Positions 2 to 26,380 of a stretch of 33,707 nt of DNA are shown here, one piece after another. Under the pieces are notes generated by a model that worked only from the letters and a program-made list of their open reading frames with translations, was not told the DNA's origin and did no database searches. Positions within the stretch are counted from its first letter, which is position 1, and each line of letters begins with the position of its first letter. The position numbers and the translations under genes are program-made. This DNA comes from Candidatus Woesearchaeota archaeon (GTDB lineage Archaea > Nanobdellota > Nanobdellia > Woesearchaeales > J072): assembly GCA_003695265.1 (NCBI GenBank), contig RFII01000037.1:1-33707 (forward strand), read 5' to 3'.

Positions 2-973
2 ACAGCACAAATCATCTACCTAAACCAAAACACAACCAACAACAAAACACCCCTAGAAATAACATACTCACAACCACAAAGCAAACAAGCAATATTCGTT
101 GCGCGGAAATCTGTAAGCTTTGAAGATGTTTGTGTGGAGACATGTGCTGTTAATTTCACTGACACAAATTATGAGGTGAGGTTTGAGGTTAGTAATGCCA
201 CTTTGCATATCATCAACATAAGCTACACAACAACACAGAATATTAGGGTTCCTGAAAACGTGACCTTAATAATCCAAGGCAACGAGACCATCTTCATAAA
301 CAACACTTTGCTAAACGCTTCCATAAGCGCGGGCTTAAAATCAATGCTGAATTACAGTGACATTGATGCCGGAAGCTTATGGGTCCTCTCAAAAATAAAT
401 GAGATTCAGCCTTCAAACGAGATAACCAGCAGAATAAATTATTATATGTATGATGAGTCGGATGAAGAGGCGCCGATTTTTAAGTTTATTAGGAAACAAG
501 AAATAACGAGTAGTGATGTTCCAGATAAGTTGTGGAGCATCCAATACACGTCCGACTTCCTAAAGGTGTGGATGTGCAGGTCTGAGCCGATTGATGAGAA
601 ATTCTTAGCAGGGCTTGAGCAGAGAACAGTAGAAAAGTTTGAGGAGTACAAGGACTTGCATGTCCTGCTCGCTTATGTTTGGGCAAAGGAGCTCGGATGC
701 TACGAACCAGAAGTGCTTGACCCGCTTATCAGTAAGAAAGTATCCGAGATACTGAGCAAGAGCACTGACGGCTTGTCGATTGACGTGGTTGCTGAGCGAG
801 CAGCTGTTGTTCAGTACGCAGGCTACCGGATACCACCAAGCCTTGTTGAATACCTGCTGGTAACGCAGAACATTGATGGCGGCTGGTCATCTGATATTGA
901 GAGCAGCTCAAATCCGCACACAACCAGCCTTGCTATTTGGGCTTTAGTACAATGGAGAGAGAATAATGAATAA
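2..973 (+). CDS. N-terminally truncated (window edge) secreted/surface protein with C-terminal alpha/alpha-toroid (terpenoid cyclase/prenyltransferase-like) repeat
   Basis: Frame is open from base 2 upstream of the GTG at 134 (TAQIIYLNQNTTNNKTPLEITYS...). C-terminus 'LVEYLLVTQNIDGGWSSDIESSSNPHTTSLAIWALVQW' resembles a QxxDGGW toroid repeat. Stop at 971-973 overlaps the next gene start. Confidence 0.7.
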   Translation, partial: TAQIIYLNQNTTNNKTPLEITYSQPQSKQAIFVARKSVSFEDVCVETCAVNFTDTNYEVRFEVSNATLHIINISYTTTQNIRVPENVTLIIQGNETIFINNTLLNASISAGLKSMLNYSDIDAGSLWVLSKINEIQPSNEITSRINYYMYDESDEEAPIFKFIRKQEITSSDVPDKLWSIQYTSDFLKVWMCRSEPIDEKFLAGLEQRTVEKFEEYKDLHVLLAYVWAKELGCYEPEVLDPLISKKVSEILSKSTDGLSIDVVAERAAVVQYAGYRIPPSLVEYLLVTQNIDGGWSSDIESSSNPHTTSLAIWALVQWRENNE

Positions 974-3900
974 GAGACTGGGAATATTTTGGATTATGGC
1001 ATTTTTTGTTCTGATTAGCTTGAAGAGTGTTATTCCCACGAACCCTACTTGTAATATTAATTCAGTTAGCATTTTATGCACGAACAGCTGCAAATGGAAC
1101 GTTGGTGAAGCAAAAAACGTAGGATGTTCTATAGATTGGGCCATGCCATTTCTTAGCATATGCACAGCTCCTGACGCAATTTGGACAGATAGAACTAGCG
1201 GGTCTTGGAGCATGATCCCATCTATTGACACGGACGTTGATTGCAACGGCGCATCATGCAAATATTCTCAAATACCGGACACAGCTTGGGAATACAAGTT
1301 GATTAAGTGCGAAAGCGCTGGCCAGTACCAAATAAGATGCAGTGATAAAGGAGGGGCTCATTACAGCAGCACTAAAACATTAACGTGCGTAGGAATCCCT
1401 AACGCAACGCAGGACAGTCCCCCAAATAGTTATATTGATACTGATGGCAATGTCACTTTTGTGTGTAATGCTTCAGCAACAAACAATCTGAAAAATATTT
1501 CATTAATCGGAAACTTTAGCGGCACTTTCGGCATTAACTCAACAAACATTGTGAGCGGAACTTTCAACACAACAAACTTCACCCTTGAAAACATTGCTGA
1601 CGGCGCGTATGTGTGGAACTGCAACGCTAGCGACAATGAGTCGAACTCAGACGTAGGGGACACGAATTACACCTTGTACGTTTACTGCAACCCACCTGCT
1701 GGAGGTGACTGGACGCCGCCTATTGGAGAAGGAAACGCCACTTGCCAAGATATTTCAGAAATGGTTAATTCCTTAACAATACCTTCAGGCCTCAAATTTG
1801 AGCTCATAAACGCTACAATAAACACGAAAAACCTTACAATCAAGCCAGGAGGCTCACTAATCATAAGAGATTCTCATAGCACTATTTGGCTTAACTCAAA
1901 CTTAACAGTGGAGGGAAACTTCACCCTTGACAATTCCACTATGCGCGTCAACAGCAGCTATAATGGTGAATACAACATAATTGTCCTGAGCGGCGGAAGA
2001 ATGATTGTTGCTAATAACAGCAACATAACAGAGGGCGAATTCACAAGCAATTACAGGTTCTGGGCTGAGTACGGCTCATACCTTGAAATAACAGATTCTG
2101 TTATTGAGGACGTGGGCTGGGATCAAAGCGGGTATCATAGGAATGAGAGCATATTCGTTAACTCGTCTGCTGTGATAAGAAACACGACTATCACAGATGG
2201 CTATGGCGGTGTGTATTTGGGACCCGGCTCAAATGGGAGCAACATAACAAACAACATTTTTGACCCGGGCTCAAGCGCTGGTATAACAGCAATTTTAGCT
2301 AACGGCTCCGGCTTCCACAACATTTCAAACAATTACATAACAGGATTTAATGCTGGAGGAAGCATCAGCATGCATTTCGTGAATTCTGACAACAACATTA
2401 TAAGTGAAAACACCCTCTATAATACAAGCAAGGCACCATCAGATGTTAAAGGGGTTGTATTCTTTAACTCAAACAACAACACATTTTTCAACAACAACTT
2501 AACTGATATTGGTGTCGGAGTATGTGCATCAGGGAACGGCTACGGCATAATAATAGACTCATCATACGGAAACCTAATAGACAACAACACGTTGTATGAC
2601 ATCAGCGAATGCAACGGAGTGTCATTCGGAATATTGGTTAATAACAGCGGCCAGAACAACACAATAAGCAACAACAACATAAACCAGACTGTTGATGATG
2701 GAATATACGTAACAAACTCAACATACACTTACATTTTGAACAACACTATTTTTAACACGAGCGATGACGGCATTGAGCTGATGCCGGGCTCTGACCACTC
2801 AAACATAAGCGGAAACACAATCATCTCGGCCAACATTTCAGGAATCGATATCTTGACTAATAATAGTGTAGTTTATAATAATTTCATTAATGGGGACAGT
2901 GACAGCACAAGCGGCTTAACCATCAGTAGCGGATCTAGTGTAGAGAATATTACCATAAGGGGCTTAACATTGGGCAATATAACAATTACGGCGATAAACT
3001 TGAGTGACAACAGCAATAACATAACAATAAGGGATGCGTATTATACAGATTCATCCGCAAATACTGGATTAAGTGTTAGAAGCAATGTATTAATGATTGA
3101 CTCAAACCCGACAGGATCGACAAACAACATAAGGTTTGTGTCTGGAACAGCAGCTAACCTCACCACAATTAATGTCACAGAAATCCCGGCTTCAGTTGAG
3201 GCAGGCCAGCACCACTGGAGGAAATGGTGGGTTTATATAACAGTGCAGGACGAGGCTGGAAGGCCGGTAGAGAACGCTAATGTGACTGTGTGGGACAAGG
3301 ACAATAACGAGGTTGAAAACTTCCTGACGCCGGCAGACGGCAGGAGAAATTTGAACCTTACAGAATACCATAGGTATTACAGCGGCGGAGAAGTTTACTT
3401 TTATTATTCTAATTACACAATCAATGCTACGAAGTACGGCTCGTTGGCATCTGAGAAAGTTAATCTTACTGGAAACATTAACTTAATATTGACTCTTCCA
3501 AATGATCCGCCATCAACGCCAACACCTTCATTAACAAGCGAGAACGGCACGAACACAACATTAGAATATCTCAACTGCTCAGCTTTGATAACAGATGCCA
3601 ATAATGATTCTATGAACGTAACAGTAAAATGGTATAATAATTCAGTTCTATGGATGACTGTTAACTACTTCAACAGCTACGCAAACGGCACACTATTCAA
3701 CGCAACACTCGCAAGCTCAAACACAACATTAGGAGACGTGTGGAGCTGCAGTATAATGCTTAATGACAGCATGAACGTATCAGCCTGGGGGAACTCAAAC
3801 AACGTGACAATAATAGACACAACACCACCAACAATAACATGGGAAAACCCAACACCAAACAACGCAACAATAACAAACAACAACTACGCATACCTAAACA

Positions 3901-6900
3901 CAACAATAACAGACACACACAACACCTCAGCATTCATCGACTGGAACAGGACATTGATCGGCTATTGGAGCATGGACGCATACAACTCAACAGGCATTTA
4001 CGACAACTCAACCTACACCCATTTCGCGGAATTCATAGGCATTAGCACAGCAAACATTACAGACGCGAAGTATGGGAAGGGGGTTGACCTAGACGGAACA
4101 TCTGATTACCTTAAAGTAAGTGAGGACAATTCCTTAGACCCTGGAACAGATAATTGGACCGTTGAAGTCTGGGCAAAACCCCCCAACTCAAACCAAAGAT
4201 CATTTATTATCTCAAAAAGAACACCTTCTGGCAGTTACGAGCAGTGGGGCATGGGAATATTTGACGCCACAACCAGCTTCCAAGCAGGGCAAAGGCTCAG
4301 ATGCTTGTGGTTAGGGCAGAGCGGTACAGGATACAGGTTTGCGCCTGCCTCAAACTCGGATGTTGCTGACGGCAACTGGCATCATTATGCCTGCGTCTTC
4401 GAGTATGGAAACACAATAAGAATGTACAAGGATGGTGTTGAATTAGCTTCAACGTTCCCTTATGGCGGAGGAACATGGGAATCTATGGACAATAGTGATC
4501 CGCTAGGAATTGGAAGTGATGGTTATGGCAATTATAAGTTTGCAGGCTCAATAGATGAGGTTAGAATTTACCGCAGAGCATTAAGCCCGGAAGAAATCAA
4601 CGCCTCCTACAACAACAACCTTCACAGGTTATACCACAACTTCACAGGACTAAGCAGTGGAACTTACAATTACACAGCATACGCGATAGACCAAGCAGGC
4701 AACCTCCAAATAACAGCAACGAGAAACATAACAATCGACACGACACCGCCAACAATAACCTGGGAAAACCCAACTCCAAGCAATGATGCCATAGTTACGG
4801 ATGAATATGTCTACCTAAACACGACAATAACAGACAGCACAAACACATCAGCATTCATCGACTGGAACAGGAGCCTTGTGGGGTACTGGAGCTTTGATGT
4901 GACCGATGCAACATATGTTTATGATAACTCATCATATGGGCACGACTTAACTTTTGAGGGAGGTCTTGGACAGGCAAATCTGACTCCGGGTGTGTATGGG
5001 AATGCGATAACGATGGATGGGGAAATCGGCATAAACGGCGACTACTTGAAAAGGCCGTTAAACCAAGACTTAAATCTTTCTAACACAAGTTTCACATTCA
5101 TGCTGTGGGTGAACCTGAGGGATACGGACGCTACAAGTTACGTCTTGACGTATGGAACTTCATCTCATACGTTTATGTACATTGGCGGCGGAGGAACGCC
5201 CGCCCTCAGAGTTGGGAACGGCACTGCCACGACAACGCTCGCGGCAGGAAGCGTGGCGAAGAACACGTGGACGCACCTTGCTTACCAGCTCGAGAAGGTA
5301 AGGGATAAGAATTTTACTATGAGAATATTCGTGAATGGAGTGCTTGCAGGCTCCAAAAGCACGACAATTGTGAACACCAACCCATATACTGAACCTTTAA
5401 GGCTCGGCTCTTATTATACTAATATTAATCATTTCAATGGATCTATGGATGAGGCCATGCTGTTCAGGCGCGCCCTCTCACCTGAAGAAATCAACGCCTC
5501 TTACAACAACAACCTTCACAGGCTCTACCACAACTTCACAAACCTTAGCAAAGGAACATATAACTACACCGCATACGCGATAGACCAAGTAGGCAACCTC
5601 CAAAAAACAGCAACGAGAAACGTGACAATTAACATTGTTCCTGCAACGCCAAGCCCAACATTAACAAGCGAGAACGGCACGAATTACACAACAGAGTATT
5701 TGAACTGCTCAGAAGTGCTAATTGATGGTGATGGGGATGCGATGAACGTTTCTGTCAAGTGGTACAACAACTCAGTTCTCTGGCTAACAGTTGATTACAA
5801 CAACAGCTACGCAAACGGCACACTATTCAACGCGACACTCGCAAGCTCAAACACTACAAAAGGCCAGAACTGGACTTGCGGAATGCAGACAAGCGACGGC
5901 TTAAACTCAAGCAGCTGGGCGAACTCAAGCGTTTTGATAATTGCGAATTCCCCACCAGTCATGCAGTCTCCAAGGATAGCGCCTGACCCTGCTTACACTA
6001 ATGACACCCTGCAAGGTTACTGTAATGCTACGGACGCTGACGGCGACACAGTCAATTATTATTATAAGTGGTTTAATGAAAGCGTGGAATTAAGCAGCGG
6101 CCGCGCAACGACAATGATAGAGGATGACACAGAAGACGCTGCTGCTTATGATGGTAATATCCAAAACCCAACTTATGCTTACGATGAAATATGGACTACT
6201 CGTGCAAAAGTATTAGGCCTTGGCGCTTCTGGAAACATTTACATCAATTACACAATCCCAAGCAATGTAATAAATGCGCAGCAAGAAGTCAAGTATACCA
6301 GCTCAGGCTGCAGCAACACTAATTATATATATTGTTATAATGGAAGCCAATGGATAATAATTGATTCGTGGTCAGGAATAATTAACACTATTAAGAATAT
6401 TTCATTAGACCAGAGCTGCATTGACAGCAATAACGGCGTTTTGGAGGAAAAGATTCATCTGGATTGTGATGTAAATCCAGGCCCAGAATCTTATTTCTTT
6501 GAGGAAAAGGTCTGGTGGAACAAATCAGTGTATTACACAGAGTCAGTAGAGAAGAACGTCAACAATTACACGCAAGCAGCGCAGCAGAAAGGCGAGAACT
6601 GGACTTATTCCTGCTTAGCATTTGATGGAACAGACAATGCGAGCAGCTGGGCAAATTATTCATTGATAATACAGAACCTGCCGCCAAACACAGTAACGCC
6701 TAGCATCACCAGCGAGAACGGAACTAATTACACGACAGAATACCTGAACTGCTCAGCCACTTTGCTGGATGGCGACGCTGATGCCATGAATGTCAGCGTG
6801 CTTTGGTACAACAACTCAGTTCTCTGGCTAACAGTTGATTACAACAACAGCTACGCGAACGGCACTCTTTTTAATGCAACGCTAGCAAGCTCAAACACCA

Positions 6901-7721
6901 CAAAAGGCCAGAACTGGAGCTGCGCTCTCAACGTAAGCGACGGCACGAACTACACATTGTCGCTTAACTCAAGCAACCTCACAATTGCTAATACGCCGCC
7001 CTCCAATGTCACTTTGATTTTCCCGAACAACGGCAATGACACACTGCTTGACAGGACTCCAACCTTTAACTGGAGCGCCGCAACTGACCCTGACAATGAC
7101 GTGATAAATTACACGCTAAATGTGACTTGCCCGACGTGCTCAGCAGAAATAAACGTAGTGGTATCAAACGACACTAATTACACACCTTCAATAGAACTTG
7201 ACCTTGACAAGGTGTATTATTGGAATGTAACCACTAATGACGGCACTGACTCGGGCGGAACTTCAGAGACATGGAATTTCACGATACTCTCAACGAGCAT
7301 AATAATGGTTAACGGATCGGTTAATTTCAGCAATATGCAGCTTTTGGAGTATGATAATACCTCAGATGACAATCCTCCTCCTTTTGTTGTTGAGAACAAT
7401 GGCAACGTATTAGTTAATGTTACTGTGTACGCTCAGAGCTCTCTTTGGGACACTGTTGGCTTGAACACCACTTATTTCATGGCAAAGGCTGACAACCACA
7501 CAGCAGAGCTCGGCTCGTTCAGGTACGACCTCTCGCAAACAACATACACTCCAATCCAGAACGTTACTTACAAGGAAAGGTACATCTCATACCTGAATTA
7601 TTCTGACTCGAACGACCTTGCCGAGCTAGACATTGCTGTCCAGGTTCCTGATGCGGAGCCTGCCGGCAACAAATCATCAGTACTAGTATTTGAGGCGACT
7701 GCCTCAGGCAATCCACCATGA
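966..7721 (+). CDS. Giant (2251 aa) secreted surface protein: parallel beta-helix (NosD/pectate-lyase-like) region, two LamG-like domains, three Ig-like repeats, C-terminal beta-sandwich
   Basis: Signal-peptide-like N-terminus; repeated NNTxSNNxI beta-helix rungs (about 1.8-3.1 kb); 'IGYWSMDAYNSTGIYDNSTY...VEVWAKPP...DGNWHHYACVF...IDEVRIYRRALSPEEINASYNNN' LamG signature twice; many N-x-S/T sequons. Confidence 0.9.
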   Translation: MNKRLGIFWIMAFFVLISLKSVIPTNPTCNINSVSILCTNSCKWNVGEAKNVGCSIDWAMPFLSICTAPDAIWTDRTSGSWSMIPSIDTDVDCNGASCKYSQIPDTAWEYKLIKCESAGQYQIRCSDKGGAHYSSTKTLTCVGIPNATQDSPPNSYIDTDGNVTFVCNASATNNLKNISLIGNFSGTFGINSTNIVSGTFNTTNFTLENIADGAYVWNCNASDNESNSDVGDTNYTLYVYCNPPAGGDWTPPIGEGNATCQDISEMVNSLTIPSGLKFELINATINTKNLTIKPGGSLIIRDSHSTIWLNSNLTVEGNFTLDNSTMRVNSSYNGEYNIIVLSGGRMIVANNSNITEGEFTSNYRFWAEYGSYLEITDSVIEDVGWDQSGYHRNESIFVNSSAVIRNTTITDGYGGVYLGPGSNGSNITNNIFDPGSSAGITAILANGSGFHNISNNYITGFNAGGSISMHFVNSDNNIISENTLYNTSKAPSDVKGVVFFNSNNNTFFNNNLTDIGVGVCASGNGYGIIIDSSYGNLIDNNTLYDISECNGVSFGILVNNSGQNNTISNNNINQTVDDGIYVTNSTYTYILNNTIFNTSDDGIELMPGSDHSNISGNTIISANISGIDILTNNSVVYNNFINGDSDSTSGLTISSGSSVENITIRGLTLGNITITAINLSDNSNNITIRDAYYTDSSANTGLSVRSNVLMIDSNPTGSTNNIRFVSGTAANLTTINVTEIPASVEAGQHHWRKWWVYITVQDEAGRPVENANVTVWDKDNNEVENFLTPADGRRNLNLTEYHRYYSGGEVYFYYSNYTINATKYGSLASEKVNLTGNINLILTLPNDPPSTPTPSLTSENGTNTTLEYLNCSALITDANNDSMNVTVKWYNNSVLWMTVNYFNSYANGTLFNATLASSNTTLGDVWSCSIMLNDSMNVSAWGNSNNVTIIDTTPPTITWENPTPNNATITNNNYAYLNTTITDTHNTSAFIDWNRTLIGYWSMDAYNSTGIYDNSTYTHFAEFIGISTANITDAKYGKGVDLDGTSDYLKVSEDNSLDPGTDNWTVEVWAKPPNSNQRSFIISKRTPSGSYEQWGMGIFDATTSFQAGQRLRCLWLGQSGTGYRFAPASNSDVADGNWHHYACVFEYGNTIRMYKDGVELASTFPYGGGTWESMDNSDPLGIGSDGYGNYKFAGSIDEVRIYRRALSPEEINASYNNNLHRLYHNFTGLSSGTYNYTAYAIDQAGNLQITATRNITIDTTPPTITWENPTPSNDAIVTDEYVYLNTTITDSTNTSAFIDWNRSLVGYWSFDVTDATYVYDNSSYGHDLTFEGGLGQANLTPGVYGNAITMDGEIGINGDYLKRPLNQDLNLSNTSFTFMLWVNLRDTDATSYVLTYGTSSHTFMYIGGGGTPALRVGNGTATTTLAAGSVAKNTWTHLAYQLEKVRDKNFTMRIFVNGVLAGSKSTTIVNTNPYTEPLRLGSYYTNINHFNGSMDEAMLFRRALSPEEINASYNNNLHRLYHNFTNLSKGTYNYTAYAIDQVGNLQKTATRNVTINIVPATPSPTLTSENGTNYTTEYLNCSEVLIDGDGDAMNVSVKWYNNSVLWLTVDYNNSYANGTLFNATLASSNTTKGQNWTCGMQTSDGLNSSSWANSSVLIIANSPPVMQSPRIAPDPAYTNDTLQGYCNATDADGDTVNYYYKWFNESVELSSGRATTMIEDDTEDAAAYDGNIQNPTYAYDEIWTTRAKVLGLGASGNIYINYTIPSNVINAQQEVKYTSSGCSNTNYIYCYNGSQWIIIDSWSGIINTIKNISLDQSCIDSNNGVLEEKIHLDCDVNPGPESYFFEEKVWWNKSVYYTESVEKNVNNYTQAAQQKGENWTYSCLAFDGTDNASSWANYSLIIQNLPPNTVTPSITSENGTNYTTEYLNCSATLLDGDADAMNVSVLWYNNSVLWLTVDYNNSYANGTLFNATLASSNTTKGQNWSCALNVSDGTNYTLSLNSSNLTIANTPPSNVTLIFPNNGNDTLLDRTPTFNWSAATDPDNDVINYTLNVTCPTCSAEINVVVSNDTNYTPSIELDLDKVYYWNVTTNDGTDSGGTSETWNFTILSTSIIMVNGSVNFSNMQLLEYDNTSDDNPPPFVVENNGNVLVNVTVYAQSSLWDTVGLNTTYFMAKADNHTAELGSFRYDLSQTTYTPIQNVTYKERYISYLNYSDSNDLAELDIAVQVPDAEPAGNKSSVLVFEATASGNPP
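3516..3816 (+). repeat. Ig-like module copy A (TPTPSLTSENGTN...SYANGTLFNATLASSNTT)
   Basis: Matches copies at 5646-5949 and 6696-6990 at protein level and partly at DNA level (aacagctacgcaaacggcacactattcaacgc). Confidence 0.85.
3831..4736 (+). repeat. LamG plus linker module copy A
   Basis: ITWENPTPNN...TSAFIDWNRTLIGYWSMD...SPEEINASYNNNLHRLYHNFTGLSSGTYNYTAYAIDQAGNLQ recurs at 4749-5628. Confidence 0.85.
4749..5628 (+). repeat. LamG plus linker module copy B
   Basis: ITWENPTPSN...TSAFIDWNRSLVGYWSFD...SPEEINASYNNNLHRLYHNFTNLSKGTYNYTAYAIDQVGNLQ. Confidence 0.85.
5646..5949 (+). repeat. Ig-like module copy B
   Basis: TPSPTLTSENGTNYTTEYLNCSEVLIDGDGDAMNVSVKWYNNSVLWLTVDYNNSYANGTLFNATLASSNTTKGQNW. 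Confidence 0.85.
6696..6990 (+). repeat. Ig-like module copy C
   Basis: TPSITSENGTNYTTEYLNCSATLLDGDADAMNVSVLWYNNSVLWLTVDYNNSYANGTLFNATLASSNTTKGQNW. Confidence 0.85.
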
Positions 7722-15337: not shown

Positions 15338-16078
15338 ATGGAAATTATCCAATCCTTAAAGAAATTTGGGCTTTCAGAAAAAGAAGGAAGCGTATATCTA
15401 AGTTGCTTAGAATTAGGAGAGACCACAGCAACGAATATTTCGATTAAAAGCAATCTGCCAAGAACATTGGTTTATGATATTTTGGAGAGGCTGATAAATC
15501 TTGGTCTTGTTTCTTATAATATAAAAGCAAATAAAAAGCATTTCATAGCAGCAGAGCCAAAAGAGCTACTTAGAATTTTGAAAGAAAAGGAAGAAGCAAT
15601 AAAAGAGATATTGCCTAATCTTGAAGAATTACAAAAATTAAAAGGGGTGAAGAGGCCTAAAGTTGAAATCTACGAGGGAAAAGAGGGAATGAAAACTGCA
15701 ATGAACAATATTTTACGCTCAAAGATAAAGGAATTCAGGGTTTATGGTAGCTCAAGGTCGTCTTTAGAAATAATACCTGCATTCATGGATGAATGGCATA
15801 AACAAAGAATAAAACAAAAAATACAGATGAAGGTTTTATATAATAACACAAAATCGGCAAGAGAAAAAGTAAAGGAAAAGCCAGAATCATTAAAATATGC
15901 GAGATACAAATTCATGCCCATAAAATTAGAGTCGCCTACAGCAATTGTTGTTTATAGCAACAAAGTGGCTTTGCAATCATGGACAAAAAAGCCGTTTACA
16001 GTAATGATTGAAGATGAGGAGATGGCAAAAAACCAGATGAGGTATTTTGAAGAATTATGGAAAATTGCAGAATTGTAA
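15338..16078 (+). CDS. TrmB-family transcriptional regulator
   Basis: 'LKKFGLSEKEGSVYLSCLELGETTATNISIKSNLPRTLVYDILERLINLGLVSYNIKANKKHFIAAEPKELLRILKEKEEAIKEILPNLEEL' is a classic TrmB wHTH plus coiled coil. Confidence 0.93.
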   Translation: MEIIQSLKKFGLSEKEGSVYLSCLELGETTATNISIKSNLPRTLVYDILERLINLGLVSYNIKANKKHFIAAEPKELLRILKEKEEAIKEILPNLEELQKLKGVKRPKVEIYEGKEGMKTAMNNILRSKIKEFRVYGSSRSSLEIIPAFMDEWHKQRIKQKIQMKVLYNNTKSAREKVKEKPESLKYARYKFMPIKLESPTAIVVYSNKVALQSWTKKPFTVMIEDEEMAKNQMRYFEELWKIAEL

Positions 16079-16237
16079 TCAAAAAAAACAGCATTATTCT
16101 GAAAATAAGGTTTGTTTTTCCTGCAAAAATCCGATAAATTTAAATAGAATCCATTTTTCCGTAGTGGGTAGTTCAGACGAGCAAACTAAAAATCAAAGGG
16201 GCTGTGGGGTAGCTTGGTCTAGCCTTTCTGGTTTGGG

Positions 16238-16255
16238 TCAGCATGACTGAAAAAA
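16238..16255 (+). other. Canonical tRNA intron (37/38), about 18 nt
   Basis: tcagcatgactgaaaaaa between G37 and position 38; relaxed BHB with TTT:AAA central helix, GGT/AAG bulges and CAG:CTG inner helix. Confidence 0.85.
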
Positions 16256-16276
16256 GCCAGACGACCCCGGTTCAAA

Positions 16277-16357
16277 TACAGGGTTCGGAGCGCGGCCATC
16301 GGTGTTCAGCGTTCAGAACTGAACACAGACCGCTGAGCACTGCTCGCTGATTGAAAG
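16277..16357 (+). other. Noncanonical tRNA intron in T-loop (59/60), about 81 nt
   Basis: T-stem halves CCCGG (16266-16270) and CCGGG (16359-16363) are separated by an insert; BHB-like TTCA:TGAA 4-bp central helix with AAT and AGT 3-nt bulges; excision gives the 7-nt T-loop TTCAAAT. Confidence 0.88.
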
Positions 16358-16379
16358 TCCGGGCAGCCCCATCAAAAAA

Positions 16380-16622
16380 ATGGTCAAGAAAAAAAAGTTT
16401 GGATCTGTCAAAAGGTTTGGTCCTCGATATGGAAGAAGAACAAAGGACAGAGTGTCAGAAGTCGAGGCGCTGAGGAAAAAAAAGCATTCCTGCCCTTTCT
16501 GCAAAAAAAACAAAGTAAAAAGATTGGCTGCAGGAATATGGTATTGCAGCAAGTGTAACTGCAAGTTCACAAGCAAGGCATATTCTGTAAGCTCAAAGAA
16601 GAAAGTCGTTTCGGAGGCATAA
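16380..16622 (+). CDS. rpl37ae: 50S ribosomal protein L37Ae
   Basis: MVKKKKFGSVKRFGPRYGRRTKDRVSEVEALRKKKHSCPFCKKNKVKRLAAGIWYCSKCNCKFTSKAY. Confidence 0.96.
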   Translation: MVKKKKFGSVKRFGPRYGRRTKDRVSEVEALRKKKHSCPFCKKNKVKRLAAGIWYCSKCNCKFTSKAYSVSSKKKVVSEA

Positions 16623-18270: not shown

Positions 18271-19386
18271 ATGGCAAAAGAAGCAACGTCAAAAAAAGAT
18301 GCTCAAAGCAGGATAAAGGAGCTTGAGGAAGAGCTCAGGAAAACGCCTTATAATAAGAGAACCCAGCATCACATAGGTCTTATAAAAGCGCAGATAGCAA
18401 AGCTTAGGGAGAAGCAGGAAAGGCAAGGAAAAGGTAAGGGAAAGCATGAAGGTTACTCAATAAGGAAAACAGGGGATGGCACAGTAGTTTTAGTCGGCTT
18501 TCCATCATCAGGAAAATCAACTTTATTAAACAAAATTACTAAAACAGAGTCTCGCACCGGCAATTACGATTTTACAACGTTGAATGTTGTGCCAGGACTT
18601 TTGGAGTATAGGCATGCGAAGATTCAGGTTTTAGACGTTCCAGGGATTGTTAGAGGTGCTGCCTCTGGCAAGGGAAGAGGAAAAGAGGTGATTTCTGTAA
18701 TCAGGAACGCTGACCTCATTGTTGTGCTTATAGATGCAACCCAGCCAAAGCAGCTTAAATTCCTGAAAAAAGAACTTTTTGACGCTGGGATTCGAATGAA
18801 TGAGAAGAAGCCTGATGTGAAAATTACGAGAACTTCTAAAAATGGAATTGTTATTGGCACAACAAAAAAGCTCACACGTCTAAGCAAGGAAACAATAAAA
18901 GGGATTATGAAAGAATTTAAGATAATAAACGCTGATGTTGTTATAAGGGATAACATAACTGACGACCAGCTGATTGACTGTATTGAGGGGAACAGAGCAT
19001 ACATTAAAGGGGTCATAGTTGTAAACAAGATTGATTTGCTGGACAAGGAGAGATTGGATGAGGTAAAAAAGATGTTAAAGCCAGACCTAGTGATATCTGC
19101 TGAGCACGAAATTGGTGTTGAAGAGCTGAAAGAACTAATTTTTGAGAGGCTGGATTTGATAAGGATATACCTCAAGCAGCCTGGCAAGCCAGCTGACCTA
19201 AAGGAACCTCTAATAATGTTCAAGTCATGCACTGTGGAAGATGTTTGCAACAAGCTGCACAAGGATTTTGTGAGAAAATTCAGGTTCTGCAGGGTGTGGG
19301 GGAAAAGCTCAAAGTTTGACGGGCAAAGGTTCAATTTGAAGCATATCTTGGCAGATGAGGACATTTTAGAAATTCATTTGAGTTGA
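18271..19386 (+). CDS. DRG-family GTPase
   Basis: VVLVGFPSSGKSTLLNKIT...YDFTTLNVVPGLLEYRHAKIQVLDVPGIVRGAASGKGRGKEVISVIRNADL...NKID; C-terminal TGS-like domain. Confidence 0.97.
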   Translation: MAKEATSKKDAQSRIKELEEELRKTPYNKRTQHHIGLIKAQIAKLREKQERQGKGKGKHEGYSIRKTGDGTVVLVGFPSSGKSTLLNKITKTESRTGNYDFTTLNVVPGLLEYRHAKIQVLDVPGIVRGAASGKGRGKEVISVIRNADLIVVLIDATQPKQLKFLKKELFDAGIRMNEKKPDVKITRTSKNGIVIGTTKKLTRLSKETIKGIMKEFKIINADVVIRDNITDDQLIDCIEGNRAYIKGVIVVNKIDLLDKERLDEVKKMLKPDLVISAEHEIGVEELKELIFERLDLIRIYLKQPGKPADLKEPLIMFKSCTVEDVCNKLHKDFVRKFRFCRVWGKSSKFDGQRFNLKHILADEDILEIHLS

Positions 19387-19442
19387 AATTAATGAAATAA
19401 AACCCAAAAAGTTTTAAATAAAAAGAGTTTTCTTACCATAAA

Positions 19443-19838
19443 ATGATAACAGCCTCAAGGGATTCTGGGAGGCCGACTCTTTTGCTTGTGGATGATGATG
19501 ACAGCATTAGAAATGATTATATGCTTCAAATTGGTGAGAAGTTTCAGATTATACCTTTTGCTGATTACGCGTCTACAATGAGTTATTTGTCGGGCCACAA
19601 ACCAGATGTTGTTCTTTCAGACATAGATCTCACTGGAGATGGCAGTGGAAGGCAAGGTGTTAATATTTGTGATTTTGCGCGAAAAAATTATGGAATACCA
19701 GCATTTTTGATGTCATCAGATTATAGCATGAGAAGCATTGCTGAAAGGAATGGTCTTAAATTTCACCTTAAAGGTGTTGAATCAGTCGCTGATTTGGTGG
19801 AAAGAATAAGTAATGCGATTGGATACCACAGCAATTAA
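19443..19838 (+). CDS. Stand-alone response-regulator receiver domain protein
   Basis: LLLVDDDDSIRNDY...DVVLSDIDLTGDG...AFLMSSDYS...KFHLKGVESV gives DD, phospho-D, S/T and K positions. Confidence 0.92.
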   Translation: MITASRDSGRPTLLLVDDDDSIRNDYMLQIGEKFQIIPFADYASTMSYLSGHKPDVVLSDIDLTGDGSGRQGVNICDFARKNYGIPAFLMSSDYSMRSIAERNGLKFHLKGVESVADLVERISNAIGYHSN

Positions 19839-22544: not shown

Positions 22545-23807
22545 ATGAAAGGACAAAGTCAGGAGATTCCTAGGTATGAAGTAAAAAGCCAAGATGAAAG
22601 AAAATACAAGAAAATTGAGAGGCTATTAACATATAATGGAAAAGTTTCTAGAGACACGCCACTGTCAAGAGACCTTTCAAGGCTGGTTAGCCTGAAAGGA
22701 AAAACACCTCTTGCAAAGCAGCTTGGCAATGGTGTGAGTAGGCTTGAGGATTCTCTTGTAAGAAGAATGCTCAGAGGAGAGCACTTATTTGAGGAAGGAA
22801 GCGCTGAATGGCTTTTAGCTAAAGCTGCCTTATCAATAGCTGCTGAGGAACAGCAAGGAAAAAGAGACCTCGGAACGCCCGAGCTGATACACCCATTTCT
22901 TATCGCAAGAGCAGCAGTCGCGTATGATCTTGGATTAGTTGGGTTGGTTTCTGGCCTAACACATGACATTGGAGAGGAGGTTATCAAGGCAGAGCACTCA
23001 GACATAAACCCAGAGCAAATAATGAATGGTGTCAACAAAAGAATTCTGGAAGAAATGGAAAAAAATTTGGATAGATATATTCCTAGGAAGAAATGGGCTG
23101 AGATTTCTAAAGTGTTAGATGATGCAGCAACGATTTCGGCAAGACTAACAAGAAGATTAAGTGAGCCTTATCACAGTTACATAGTTGGAGCGCTACATAA
23201 TTATTATGAAGGAAACACGTTTAATCCGCGATTGGCTTATGTAGCTGCAGTCTTAAAATATTTTGATAGGTTATTTAACACCCTAGATGTTGATTCTGTC
23301 GGTGAAGAAAGCCTGCTTGACCCTAAAAAAAGGTTCAAGCTTATTGCAAAAAATATTTTACTGGAAAACGAGACGAGAGTGCTTAGGAATAGGAGGGATT
23401 TCAAAATAGAGGACCGGCTAAATAAGAATTTAGCTTTTTTAGGGCATACAATCTTATATTTTACTGAGTTAGAGGCTGCAAAGTGGATGGGGCATATAAG
23501 AAAGTATTTGCCAAGAAGTTATAATGCTGCAGAAACAGACGAGTGGATTCAGGAATTTGAGCGCAGGGGTGGCTTTGATAAAAGGACAAGGAAGAGGCCT
23601 GCAAAACTTGTTGCTAAGTACCCTTGGCTCAGATTTCATGGAAAGATGAATTATGTGAGGGGTCATTTCAGAGGAGAGCATGACTTGGAATTATTGGAAG
23701 ATAGCATTGAATTGTATGAGTCAGTTTATGCTATGCGAAGAGCAGCCCAATTAATGTATGTTGAGCCACATAGGATTATTGATAACCTAACAGGAGACAG
23801 TGGCTGA
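22545..23807 (+). CDS. SpoT/RelA-type HD-domain phosphohydrolase
   Basis: 'ELIHPFLIARAAVAYDLGLVGLVSGLTHDIGEEV' (H...HDxxEE) and 'VAAVLKYFDRLFNTLD' matching the RSH 'vLiKLaDRLHNmrtl' motif. Confidence 0.8.
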   Translation: MKGQSQEIPRYEVKSQDERKYKKIERLLTYNGKVSRDTPLSRDLSRLVSLKGKTPLAKQLGNGVSRLEDSLVRRMLRGEHLFEEGSAEWLLAKAALSIAAEEQQGKRDLGTPELIHPFLIARAAVAYDLGLVGLVSGLTHDIGEEVIKAEHSDINPEQIMNGVNKRILEEMEKNLDRYIPRKKWAEISKVLDDAATISARLTRRLSEPYHSYIVGALHNYYEGNTFNPRLAYVAAVLKYFDRLFNTLDVDSVGEESLLDPKKRFKLIAKNILLENETRVLRNRRDFKIEDRLNKNLAFLGHTILYFTELEAAKWMGHIRKYLPRSYNAAETDEWIQEFERRGGFDKRTRKRPAKLVAKYPWLRFHGKMNYVRGHFRGEHDLELLEDSIELYESVYAMRRAAQLMYVEPHRIIDNLTGDSG

Positions 23808-23851
23808 AACCCCACAATATTATTGCATAATTGCTAAAAAATAATAATAAA

Positions 23852-26380
23852 ATGGCAAGTGCTTTTTCAACACAGGAAGTAAGGGAATTCCTTGAACTTA
23901 CAGACATAATATTGGGGTGTTATGAAGACGGCAGGCCAGTGTCTCCTGAGCTCTTAGAGAAGACTCTTACTAGAGCGCGCCTAAAGGAGCTGCAGAGGTA
24001 TCTGGAAAACGAAGCATACCATAGTATGAACAATTTAAGAAGCGTATGTGGCAATATAAAAACAAGGTACATGAAGAGAAAAAGGGCGCAGAAAAGCACT
24101 TACCAAAATGTCTTTGACGGCGGAACATATGAGGTTTGGGATTTTGATCATGTTTCCCATGGAATAATATCATCTATGATTTTTGGATTAAAGTCAAGGG
24201 GCGGCTTCTGGCAGAAGTATCCAAAACACATAAAAGAGGGTAGAAGAAGAAGTGATTTTGCAAGGGCCACTGTAATTGTGAAGCATCCTGATGCTCCACA
24301 TCTGCCACGCGGAGTTCCTGATGTGGAGATAACAGCATTAACAAGAGAAGAGAGGGAAGCCTACAGGAAAAACAATGGTGCTGCTTGGGAGGAATACGAA
24401 AAAAAATGGGGGGAAAAGAATAAGAGGACAGCAGAAGAGCTTGTTATGGTTATTGAGAAAGGCATTTTTCCTTTTAAGGTTATAAACAGAAAAGACTTGC
24501 CCGTATTGTATAATGGAAGAAGGGTTTTGATGCGCGGACAAAGGTTCTCAATGTTTGGAGGAGGGCCGAGGGATTTTATTGACGCTGATTACTTAAGGTT
24601 TCCAACAGTGGAAGAAGCAAAGGAGTTTGTTGATGATTTACGGAACAAGAATATTACTGAGACCTTGGAGAATATTGTTGGGGCAAGAGAAGCTTTCTCG
24701 TATGAGAAAAATGATGAAATGTATTATGTTGCGAGAGACAGGAGTTCTGTTGCAGTTATGATCACGCCGATTAAGCATAGCAAAAGACAAGGCAAGGTTG
24801 CAACACTGCTTTCGAAAGTAATGACAAAATACACGTGCACGACCCATAGATGGGAAAGTGTAAGGGGTGCGGAAGAATACATGGACTATATCAGGAAGAC
24901 AGTAGATGCTAGGCCAGTAAAAAAAACAAAATTTTCGCATGACGTTCTGCTTTTTAAGAGAGGAAACAATTATCATATACTAGCGAGAAGGAATAATGAA
25001 ATTGTGGAGTTTGTTGGTAGTGGGAGAGAGAGCATCTTTTTTGATGCTGCAAAAAGGGTTGTTGACGATGCTCTCAACCCAAAAAACAAGGTTAAGAAAG
25101 AATACTGCGGAGCTTTTAAAGGTCTTGTTAAGTTTGATTTAAGCTCAATGCCTGGGCTAATATTAGAGGAAGGCTGTGTTTTAGAGGACAGGCTGTCACG
25201 ATATGATAACCTCGAAATTGACACTAGCTCAGGGGAGTTCATGTCTGACAATTATTTTAGGGAGCCGAAAGGCGAGAGAAAGTATGCGGGCAGTATTAAC
25301 ATGACAATAATTTTTAATGGTCAAGAGATCGAGCTTAAAATAATGACTCCAGAGCTTTATTACAAGTCTTTCTGCGGAAACCCAAAATGGGTTCCAAGAG
25401 AGTCTGGAGGTTACAAAGCAGGAGAGGAAACATTCAAGGATTTTATAGACGTCCTTGAAGTGTTTAGAAGAAGCCCTGAGCAGTCGCTTCGTGACATCAG
25501 GGATGATATTGAGATAAACTTGTATTTGAGAGAGATGAGAGAATTCCGTGAATTATTAGAATATGTGACTAGTTTTGATGAAGCATTAGATGTGTTTAAC
25601 GAAGCAAGAAGGATATATTTAAGAGCATGCACTGATCATCCTCCCCAAAAGACAGAGAGGTTAGGCAGATTGCTCTCATCATTTTTGAACCCTTATTTTT
25701 CAGAGAGAGGCCTTGCCATAATTGACGTTGCAGACCAGCTGCAATCACTGGAAGGGGAAATAATGGGGAAACCTATAAGCGTTGTTGTTAATGAATCATT
25801 GCATTTGTCAAGGTTAAATGAGATATTAAGAATCTTGGATGAAAAAACCCCTTTGATAAGCCAAACTGGAATTTCACATAATCATCGCCTGCAGGCTTAT
25901 GCTTTGCTGGAAATGGCAAGGCATTACGAAGAATTTTATGGAATATCGTTTCCTACAAGCTACAAAGAGGAAACAATGATGCCGAAAATCAACGGGTTTT
26001 TAGAGCATTTTGTTAAGGTAGAGCCGTCTAAATTATTAAGGAATCTGATAACGCCTGAAAGCCTTGAAAGACTGATGTTTGGGAGTGAAGAGCATCAGAT
26101 GGGATTAAATGAGGAAGGCAGGGCTTTCTTTAATAGTGGGGGGTATCATAGAATAACAGAGGTTCCTAAAGGATTAACCTTAACTTCCCGTCTTGGTAAG
26201 TACAAGAAAAGCGTTATAGAAGATGATTTTAATAATGTATTTCGCCCTCTTGGATTTTCAGATGATGAGATTTCGTTTATGGTTAGTCGCGCCTGCGACT
26301 TAGTAAAAACATTGAAGATTAGGAGGTTTAACGAGCTTTATAATGGCATTCCATTACACAGAACAACATATATTACTTGA
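23852..26380 (+). CDS. Large protein with divergent RelA/SpoT-synthetase-like motifs
   Basis: 'SDFARATVIVKHPD' resembles DxxRxTvvv; 'SDNYFREPKGERKYAGSINMTIIFNGQEIELKIMTPELYY' resembles RSH 'DYIaxPKxNGYxSLHxxvxxxgxxvEvQIRTxeM'. ATG at 23852. Confidence 0.5.
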   Translation: MASAFSTQEVREFLELTDIILGCYEDGRPVSPELLEKTLTRARLKELQRYLENEAYHSMNNLRSVCGNIKTRYMKRKRAQKSTYQNVFDGGTYEVWDFDHVSHGIISSMIFGLKSRGGFWQKYPKHIKEGRRRSDFARATVIVKHPDAPHLPRGVPDVEITALTREEREAYRKNNGAAWEEYEKKWGEKNKRTAEELVMVIEKGIFPFKVINRKDLPVLYNGRRVLMRGQRFSMFGGGPRDFIDADYLRFPTVEEAKEFVDDLRNKNITETLENIVGAREAFSYEKNDEMYYVARDRSSVAVMITPIKHSKRQGKVATLLSKVMTKYTCTTHRWESVRGAEEYMDYIRKTVDARPVKKTKFSHDVLLFKRGNNYHILARRNNEIVEFVGSGRESIFFDAAKRVVDDALNPKNKVKKEYCGAFKGLVKFDLSSMPGLILEEGCVLEDRLSRYDNLEIDTSSGEFMSDNYFREPKGERKYAGSINMTIIFNGQEIELKIMTPELYYKSFCGNPKWVPRESGGYKAGEETFKDFIDVLEVFRRSPEQSLRDIRDDIEINLYLREMREFRELLEYVTSFDEALDVFNEARRIYLRACTDHPPQKTERLGRLLSSFLNPYFSERGLAIIDVADQLQSLEGEIMGKPISVVVNESLHLSRLNEILRILDEKTPLISQTGISHNHRLQAYALLEMARHYEEFYGISFPTSYKEETMMPKINGFLEHFVKVEPSKLLRNLITPESLERLMFGSEEHQMGLNEEGRAFFNSGGYHRITEVPKGLTLTSRLGKYKKSVIEDDFNNVFRPLGFSDDEISFMVSRACDLVKTLKIRRFNELYNGIPLHRTTYIT

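Follow-up and report, generated by a model that had tools for sequence, protein, structure and literature searches.

The DNA analysed here, hereafter the window, is a stretch of 33,707 nucleotides that constitutes contig C86 of an archaeal genome of 1.06 Mb (103 contigs, 94.6% complete). A GTPase encoded at 18271 has its matches mainly among Candidatus Woesearchaeota relatives, and the assignment to DPANN made in an earlier sequence-only reading is supported as Woesearchaeota. The locus under study lies between two protein-coding genes and has the following organisation:

15338-16078, + strand: TrmB-type transcriptional regulator, upstream (PF01978, E=1.6e-14)
16198-16371, + strand: tRNA-Pro(UGG) with two predicted introns (from sequence, from ARAGORN after T-loop splicing and from orthologues)
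16198-16237, + strand: exon 1, with the acceptor 5' strand, the D arm and the anticodon 5' half up to G37, anticodon TGG (from sequence and relative L092)
16238-16255, + strand: canonical 37/38 intron, 18 nt, TCAGCATGACTGAAAAAA (from sequence and ARAGORN)
16256-16276, + strand: exon 2, with G38, the anticodon 3' strand, the variable region, the T-stem 5' half and T-loop TTCAAA (from sequence)
16277-16357, + strand: noncanonical 59/60 T-loop intron, 81 nt, rich in hairpins (from sequence)
16358-16371, + strand: exon 3, with T60, T-stem 3' strand CCGGG, acceptor 3' strand CAGCCCC and discriminator A (from sequence)
16380-16622, + strand: ribosomal protein L37Ae gene, downstream, 8 bases past the tRNA (PF01780, E=6.5e-23)

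The tRNA gene reads GGGGCTG-TG-GGGTAGCTTGGTCTAGCCT-T-TCTGG-TTTGGG-[TCAGCATGACTGAAAAAA]-G-CCAGA-CGAC-CCCGG-TTCAAA-[81 nt]-T-CCGGG-CAGCCCC-A. The acceptor strand GGGGCTG (16198-16204) pairs with CAGCCCC (16364-16370), the T-stem strand CCCGG occupies 16266-16270 and is followed by TTCAAA at 16271-16276, and the discriminator A73 lies at 16371; CCA is not encoded. With both intron segments taken out all four of the four tRNA stems form, the acceptor, anticodon and T stems perfectly. The relative L092, which is devoid of the 37/38 intron, has TTTGGGGCCAGACGAC, and this sets the 37/38 intron at 16238-16255, with G38 opening exon 2; ARAGORN puts the 18-nt intron one base later. A tRNA-Pro(UGG) with two introns at the 37/38 and 59/60 sites had been read from the letters before, with coordinates that proved exact to the base. 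The segment 16198-16371 is thus very probably a functional tRNA-Pro(UGG) gene carrying a canonical 37/38 intron and a T-loop intron at 59/60, both of which would be spliced out.

ARAGORN run on the raw sequence did not find the tRNA at 16198-16371, and an Rfam search of the window and its surroundings, including RF00005, assigned neither the tRNA nor its intron to an RNA family. Upon removal of the 81-nt T-loop segment, ARAGORN reported tRNA-Pro(tgg) with an 18-nt intron, in agreement with the earlier claim that excision restores a 7-nt T-loop. The behaviour is shared by 16 T-loop-intron genes of the same genome, none of which ARAGORN recognised unspliced (0/16) and 15/16 of which it recognised after removal of the 59/60 intron.

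A genome-wide search with RF00005 gave 17 matches, 8 of them above the cut-off, and several broke off abruptly at the T-loop. In the matches that stopped there, a recurring pattern GGTTCRA...TGAAAGT could be read. A junction finder requiring this junction plus a matching T-stem and acceptor identified 16 good genes in the own-genome loci and at least 10 in 754 kb of loci from relatives. Since only 3 matches appeared in the control of reversed (not complemented) loci, 984,141 bases, the tRNA/T-loop intron structure is not a product of chance. Two patterns were rejected as markers when taken alone: GGTTCRANANCAG is too loose to inform, and GAAAGTCYS, whose matches were judged by eye, is no more frequent than in the reversed control.

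Altogether, a 59/60 T-loop intron was found in at least 25 tRNA genes of the genome, a lower bound composed of the 16 genes of the junction finder, tRNA-Pro(CGG) (L200) and 8 genes added by reading. The finder genes have the anticodons Thr(GGU, UGU), Ala(GGC, CGC), Cys, Tyr, Asp, Lys(UUU), His, initiator Met, Glu(UUC, CUC), Pro(UGG), Val(CAC), Gly(CCC) and Leu; these labels are our own reading and disagree with ARAGORN where its intron placement is doubtful. Those added by reading are Gly(GCC) and Gly(UCC), each assembled by inference out of two contig ends, a second Lys-type gene, three Ser genes and two tRNA 3' halves at contig starts. Introns in the D-loop were noticed in several tRNA genes (among them L011, L014, L158 and L201), some of which also have T-loop or anticodon introns.

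The T-loop junction of tRNA-Pro(UGG) had been described as a clean BHB, and on its outer side this holds. The T-stem forms the outer helix (5/5 pairs), the TGAA near the intron end pairs with exon TTCA in a central helix of 4/4 pairs, and AG^T is the 3' bulge. The inner side departs from that description: ACAG meets CTGAT one base out of register, so that this side is relaxed and the AAT lies within an asymmetric internal loop. The junction is accordingly of the BHB-or-relaxed (hBH / HBh') kind and does not form the strict hBHBh' motif (3-nt bulge, 4-bp helix, 3-nt bulge). The 81-nt insert is predicted to form a stable hairpin that stacks on the T-stem.

The same design recurs in a table of 56 distinct introns, from which intact tandem cases were filtered out. 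The exon contributes TTCR, the intron mostly ends in YGAA, next comes a 3-nt bulge, usually AGT, and the T-stem serves as outer helix throughout the set. Three or four of the four central-helix pairs are standard in 56/56 introns; a strict 3-4-3 BHB with an in-register inner helix is found in only 17/56 junctions. The introns range from 15 to 336 nt and their sequences are unrelated, the exon bases and the junction being constant. Base 57 and its intron partner covary (A-U 31, G-C 13, G-U 7, other 5; Fisher p = 1.4e-6, a value that is only a guide because related introns are non-independent). Among twelve neighbouring offsets taken as control, two reached p < 0.05 (0.010 and 0.035) and none approached 1.4e-6. 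The G-C pairs all occur in tRNA-Pro orthologues, and the genome's own share of the pairs is A-U 12, G-U 3 and one mismatch.

The 5'-end pattern of tRNA-Pro occurs in 135/147 genomes of the order. In many relatives tRNA-Pro(UGG) shares its locus with a homologue of the GTPase, so that the genes can be treated as orthologues. A convenience sample of loci from the order was assembled by neighbourhood or 5' pattern, irrespective of T-loop state. Of its 82 tRNA-Pro-like genes, 42 carry a T-loop intron, 37 are intact and 3 are unresolved. Elsewhere in the class, 14/14 tRNA-Pro genes of other orders are intact. Two pairs of near-identical tRNA-Pro genes (L051/L054 and L053/L205) differ in that the site is filled in one member and empty in the other, and between L051 and L054 even the region of the canonical intron is nearly the same. 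In these pairs the empty site is seen directly and the intron boundaries are fixed. In two further tRNA-Pro orthologues of the order (L225, L229) an apparent insert lies at about 53/54, at the foot of the T-loop, rather than at 59/60.

That the locus is a decayed tRNA pseudogene whose T-loop received a random insertion is very improbable: standard tools do miss the gene, but the acceptor, anticodon and T stems are perfect after excision, the site is filled in orthologues across the order with junctions that covary, and the two further tRNA-Pro genes seen in this genome, L200 and L201, have the anticodon CGG by our reading, which leaves no second tRNA-Pro(UGG) among those found and disfavours the pseudogene alternative that the sequence-only reading had allowed for. 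Equally hard to credit is a T-loop insert retained as an expanded T arm, for which the stable hairpin stacked on the T-stem might speak; inserts of such different lengths and unrelated sequences nevertheless keep the exon bases and the junction constant, near-identical orthologues without the insert exist, the covariation of TTCR with YGAA fits a splice junction, and a T-loop of at least 22 nt should disrupt the contact between D-loop and T-loop.

Removal of the intron would proceed as follows. In the folded pre-tRNA the T-stem CCCGG:CCGGG would provide the outer helix, and the near-universal TTCR of the T-loop would pair with YGAA at the intron 3' end. This would leave a bulge, mostly AGT, on the 3' side and a bulge of the AAN type or an internal loop on the 5' side. 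The splicing endonuclease EndA would cut each bulge after its second base, and the ligase RtcB, one of which is present in the genome, would join the exons and give back the 7-nt loop TTCAAAT. As the outer helix and TTCR are present in every tRNA, YGAA and a hairpin should be all that an intron needs to be spliceable from any of them, and a single family of such introns could spread over the tRNA set.

Comparison of the introns by BLAST is consistent with such a spread. In the genome itself, the introns of tRNA-Gly(CCC) and tRNA-Glu(CUC) are 89% identical over 94 nt, those of tRNA-Cys and tRNA-Leu 94% over 49 nt and those of tRNA-Ala(CGC) and tRNA-His 82% over 76 nt. Members of one group, family B, are 97-98% alike in three tRNA-Gly genes and 77-89% between tRNA-Gly(CCC) and tRNA-Glu, tRNA-Val or tRNA-Thr. 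When one family-B intron was searched against the genome, all matches (9/9) fell into T-loop-intron tRNA loci; several at 97-98% and four at contig ends are as expected of recent repeats. A tRNA-Ser(GGA) gene (L155/L252, G000:C76, about 2120-2230) has a family-B intron with its core inverted relative to the other copies. The intron at 16277-16357 is of another group, ACAG..GTTCGGAGCGCGG, and is weakly related to the introns of tRNA-Ala(CGC) and tRNA-His. Similar introns are thus found at one site in different tRNA genes, as in a mobile or transposed intron family, and their presence in different isoacceptors points to lateral spread. The T-loop intron of tRNA-Pro(UGG) belongs to this genome-wide and order-wide family; the direction and means of spread between tRNA genes are what we infer from these sequences.

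The introns might instead be old in each tRNA gene, immobile and repeatedly lost, their similarity being due to tRNA gene conversion. The occurrence of the 59/60 intron in tRNA-Pro(UGG) of many families of the order, with diverged intron sequences, is in keeping with old inheritance. We nevertheless consider this account unlikely, as near-identical introns in different tRNAs and the inverted copy in tRNA-Ser(GGA) need recent intron copying, and a gene conversion restricted to introns would itself be a kind of spread.

A hairpin related to the family-B introns, in inverted orientation, was also found in the RNase P RNA gene (L143, G000:C44, about 19080-19450, minus strand; RF00373, 101.6 bits). 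It directly precedes the conserved GAGGAAAGTCC and is situated where helix P3 of RNase P RNA would be. The hairpin is therefore not confined to T-loops. The GAAAGTCCG match in this locus had been considered as another tRNA and was rejected, being part of RNase P RNA.

A single EndA gene was detectable in the genome. It encodes 190 amino acids with one N-terminal and one catalytic (C) domain. The closest solved relative is the Nanoarchaeum equitans alpha subunit (3iey_A, E=1.9e-39), the M. jannaschii enzyme is also among the closest, and the active-site region aligns with the solved enzymes at the Y, H and K positions. As to the Crenarchaea-specific loop (CSL) of crenarchaeal (alpha-beta)2 endonucleases, residues 8-94 of the query fragment (87 residues) align with residues 19-113 of chain 3p1z_B (95 residues), which, in terms of alignment extents only, makes the query about 8 residues shorter there and suggests that it has no insert of CSL size. 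A sample of the order showed one EndA match per genome almost throughout, mostly in an open frame of about 175-260 amino acids. By its sequence, the EndA detected looks to be of the alpha type. From the noncanonical intron the sequence-only reading had inferred an (alpha-beta)2 or a three-unit epsilon2 endonuclease; this was not borne out, as PF01974, PF02778 and TIGR00324 found no second EndA paralogue in the genome (about 95% complete, not closed) and, with only the 190-aa protein detected, no three-unit fusion of the epsilon2 type.

Endonucleases of the alpha4 and alpha'2 types are described in reviews as strict for the BHB, those of the (alpha-beta)2 and epsilon2 types as lenient (PMC4090602, PMC6379350). 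Either a diverged beta subunit would be hidden in this organism, or an alpha-type enzyme would handle relaxed junctions. The first option, an (alpha-beta)2 enzyme as in N. equitans with a beta subunit that has diverged beyond recognition, would explain the relaxed junctions; EndA's closest solved relative is itself the partner of a beta subunit, and the genome is incomplete. We judge it somewhat unlikely, however, as all three profile searches lack a second match, the order sample nearly always has one match per genome, and the N. equitans beta subunit matches this EndA (phmmer, 2.6e-14), so that a similar beta subunit should have shown. A hidden beta subunit is a proposition that touches the enzyme alone and would fit equally with the account of the functional, spliced tRNA-Pro(UGG) gene given above. 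Against that account count the 17/56 share of strict BHBs together with the out-of-register inner side of the tRNA-Pro(UGG) junction, the alpha-type look of EndA and the hairpin in RNase P RNA. A more far-reaching reading, which we put at somewhat short of an even chance, is that a Woesearchaeales family of T-loop introns has spread through most tRNAs by way of TTCR and that a lone alpha-type EndA, with neither a beta subunit nor a CSL-type loop, removes their mostly relaxed junctions. If true, this would contradict the rule that relaxed and noncanonical introns depend on an (alpha-beta)2 or epsilon2 enzyme. The Woesearchaeales offer a direct test of whether the endonuclease subunit type sets the permitted introns.

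Several elements of this system have precedents. Publications on Thermoproteales, Nanoarchaeum, ARMAN and Asgard archaea already cover introns at 59/60, genes with more than one intron, the transposition of introns and very intron-rich tRNA sets (PMC4090602, PMC4033280, PMC8450103, PMC11291895). Noncanonical archaeal tRNA introns have been listed at 59/60 and other sites, and tRNA-Pro(UGG) of Pyrobaculum islandicum is reported to have a canonical and noncanonical introns together (PMC4090602). The introns described here share the 59/60 position and the BHB-type junction with those, but they occur in a DPANN order, at one dominant site in the tRNA genes found and together with a single detectable alpha-type EndA. 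The occurrence of similar introns in several tRNA species of a single genome, explained by transposition, was reported in 2010, according to later summaries (PMC4033280, PMC4090602). The present case is alike in this respect and differs in lineage, in that the related copies found are at one T-loop site where TTCR makes up half of the central helix, and in the related hairpin in RNase P RNA. The Asgard Atabeyarchaeia and Freyarchaeia have introns in 92-95% of their tRNA genes and resemble our genome in a very high intron load, noncanonical sites and several introns per gene; they are an unrelated lineage, and the accessible part of the source does not describe a comparable T-loop family (PMC11291895). 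N. equitans and ARMAN-1/2 are likewise small-genome archaea with noncanonical introns, and the EndA found here is closest to the N. equitans alpha subunit, yet neither the beta subunit of the former, (alpha-beta)2, nor the three-unit fusion of the latter, epsilon2, was found in this genome. No paper on tRNA introns of Woesearchaeota turned up in the literature searched, a scope that mostly excluded subscription papers.

As a single orthologous gene has the site filled in some genomes and empty in others, the order offers a natural series for following intron gain, loss and movement. Many of the tRNA genes are invisible to ordinary finders, and DPANN genomes can consequently seem short of tRNAs; the missed tRNAs bear on claims of DPANN host dependence and on genome completeness. 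Contigs of this genome end in or near near-identical T-loop introns at L247 (C84, 3' end), L248 (C65, start), L249 (C26, end), L254 (C75, start), L153 (C72, start) and L159 (C91, start), so that these introns act as repeats, limiting the assembly and concealing tRNA genes.

Elsewhere in the window, positions 966-7721 encode a predicted surface protein of 2251 amino acids with laminin-G-like and beta-helix domains. Two neighbouring proteins of 420 and 849 amino acids, neither with a Pfam match, are encoded at 22545-26380.
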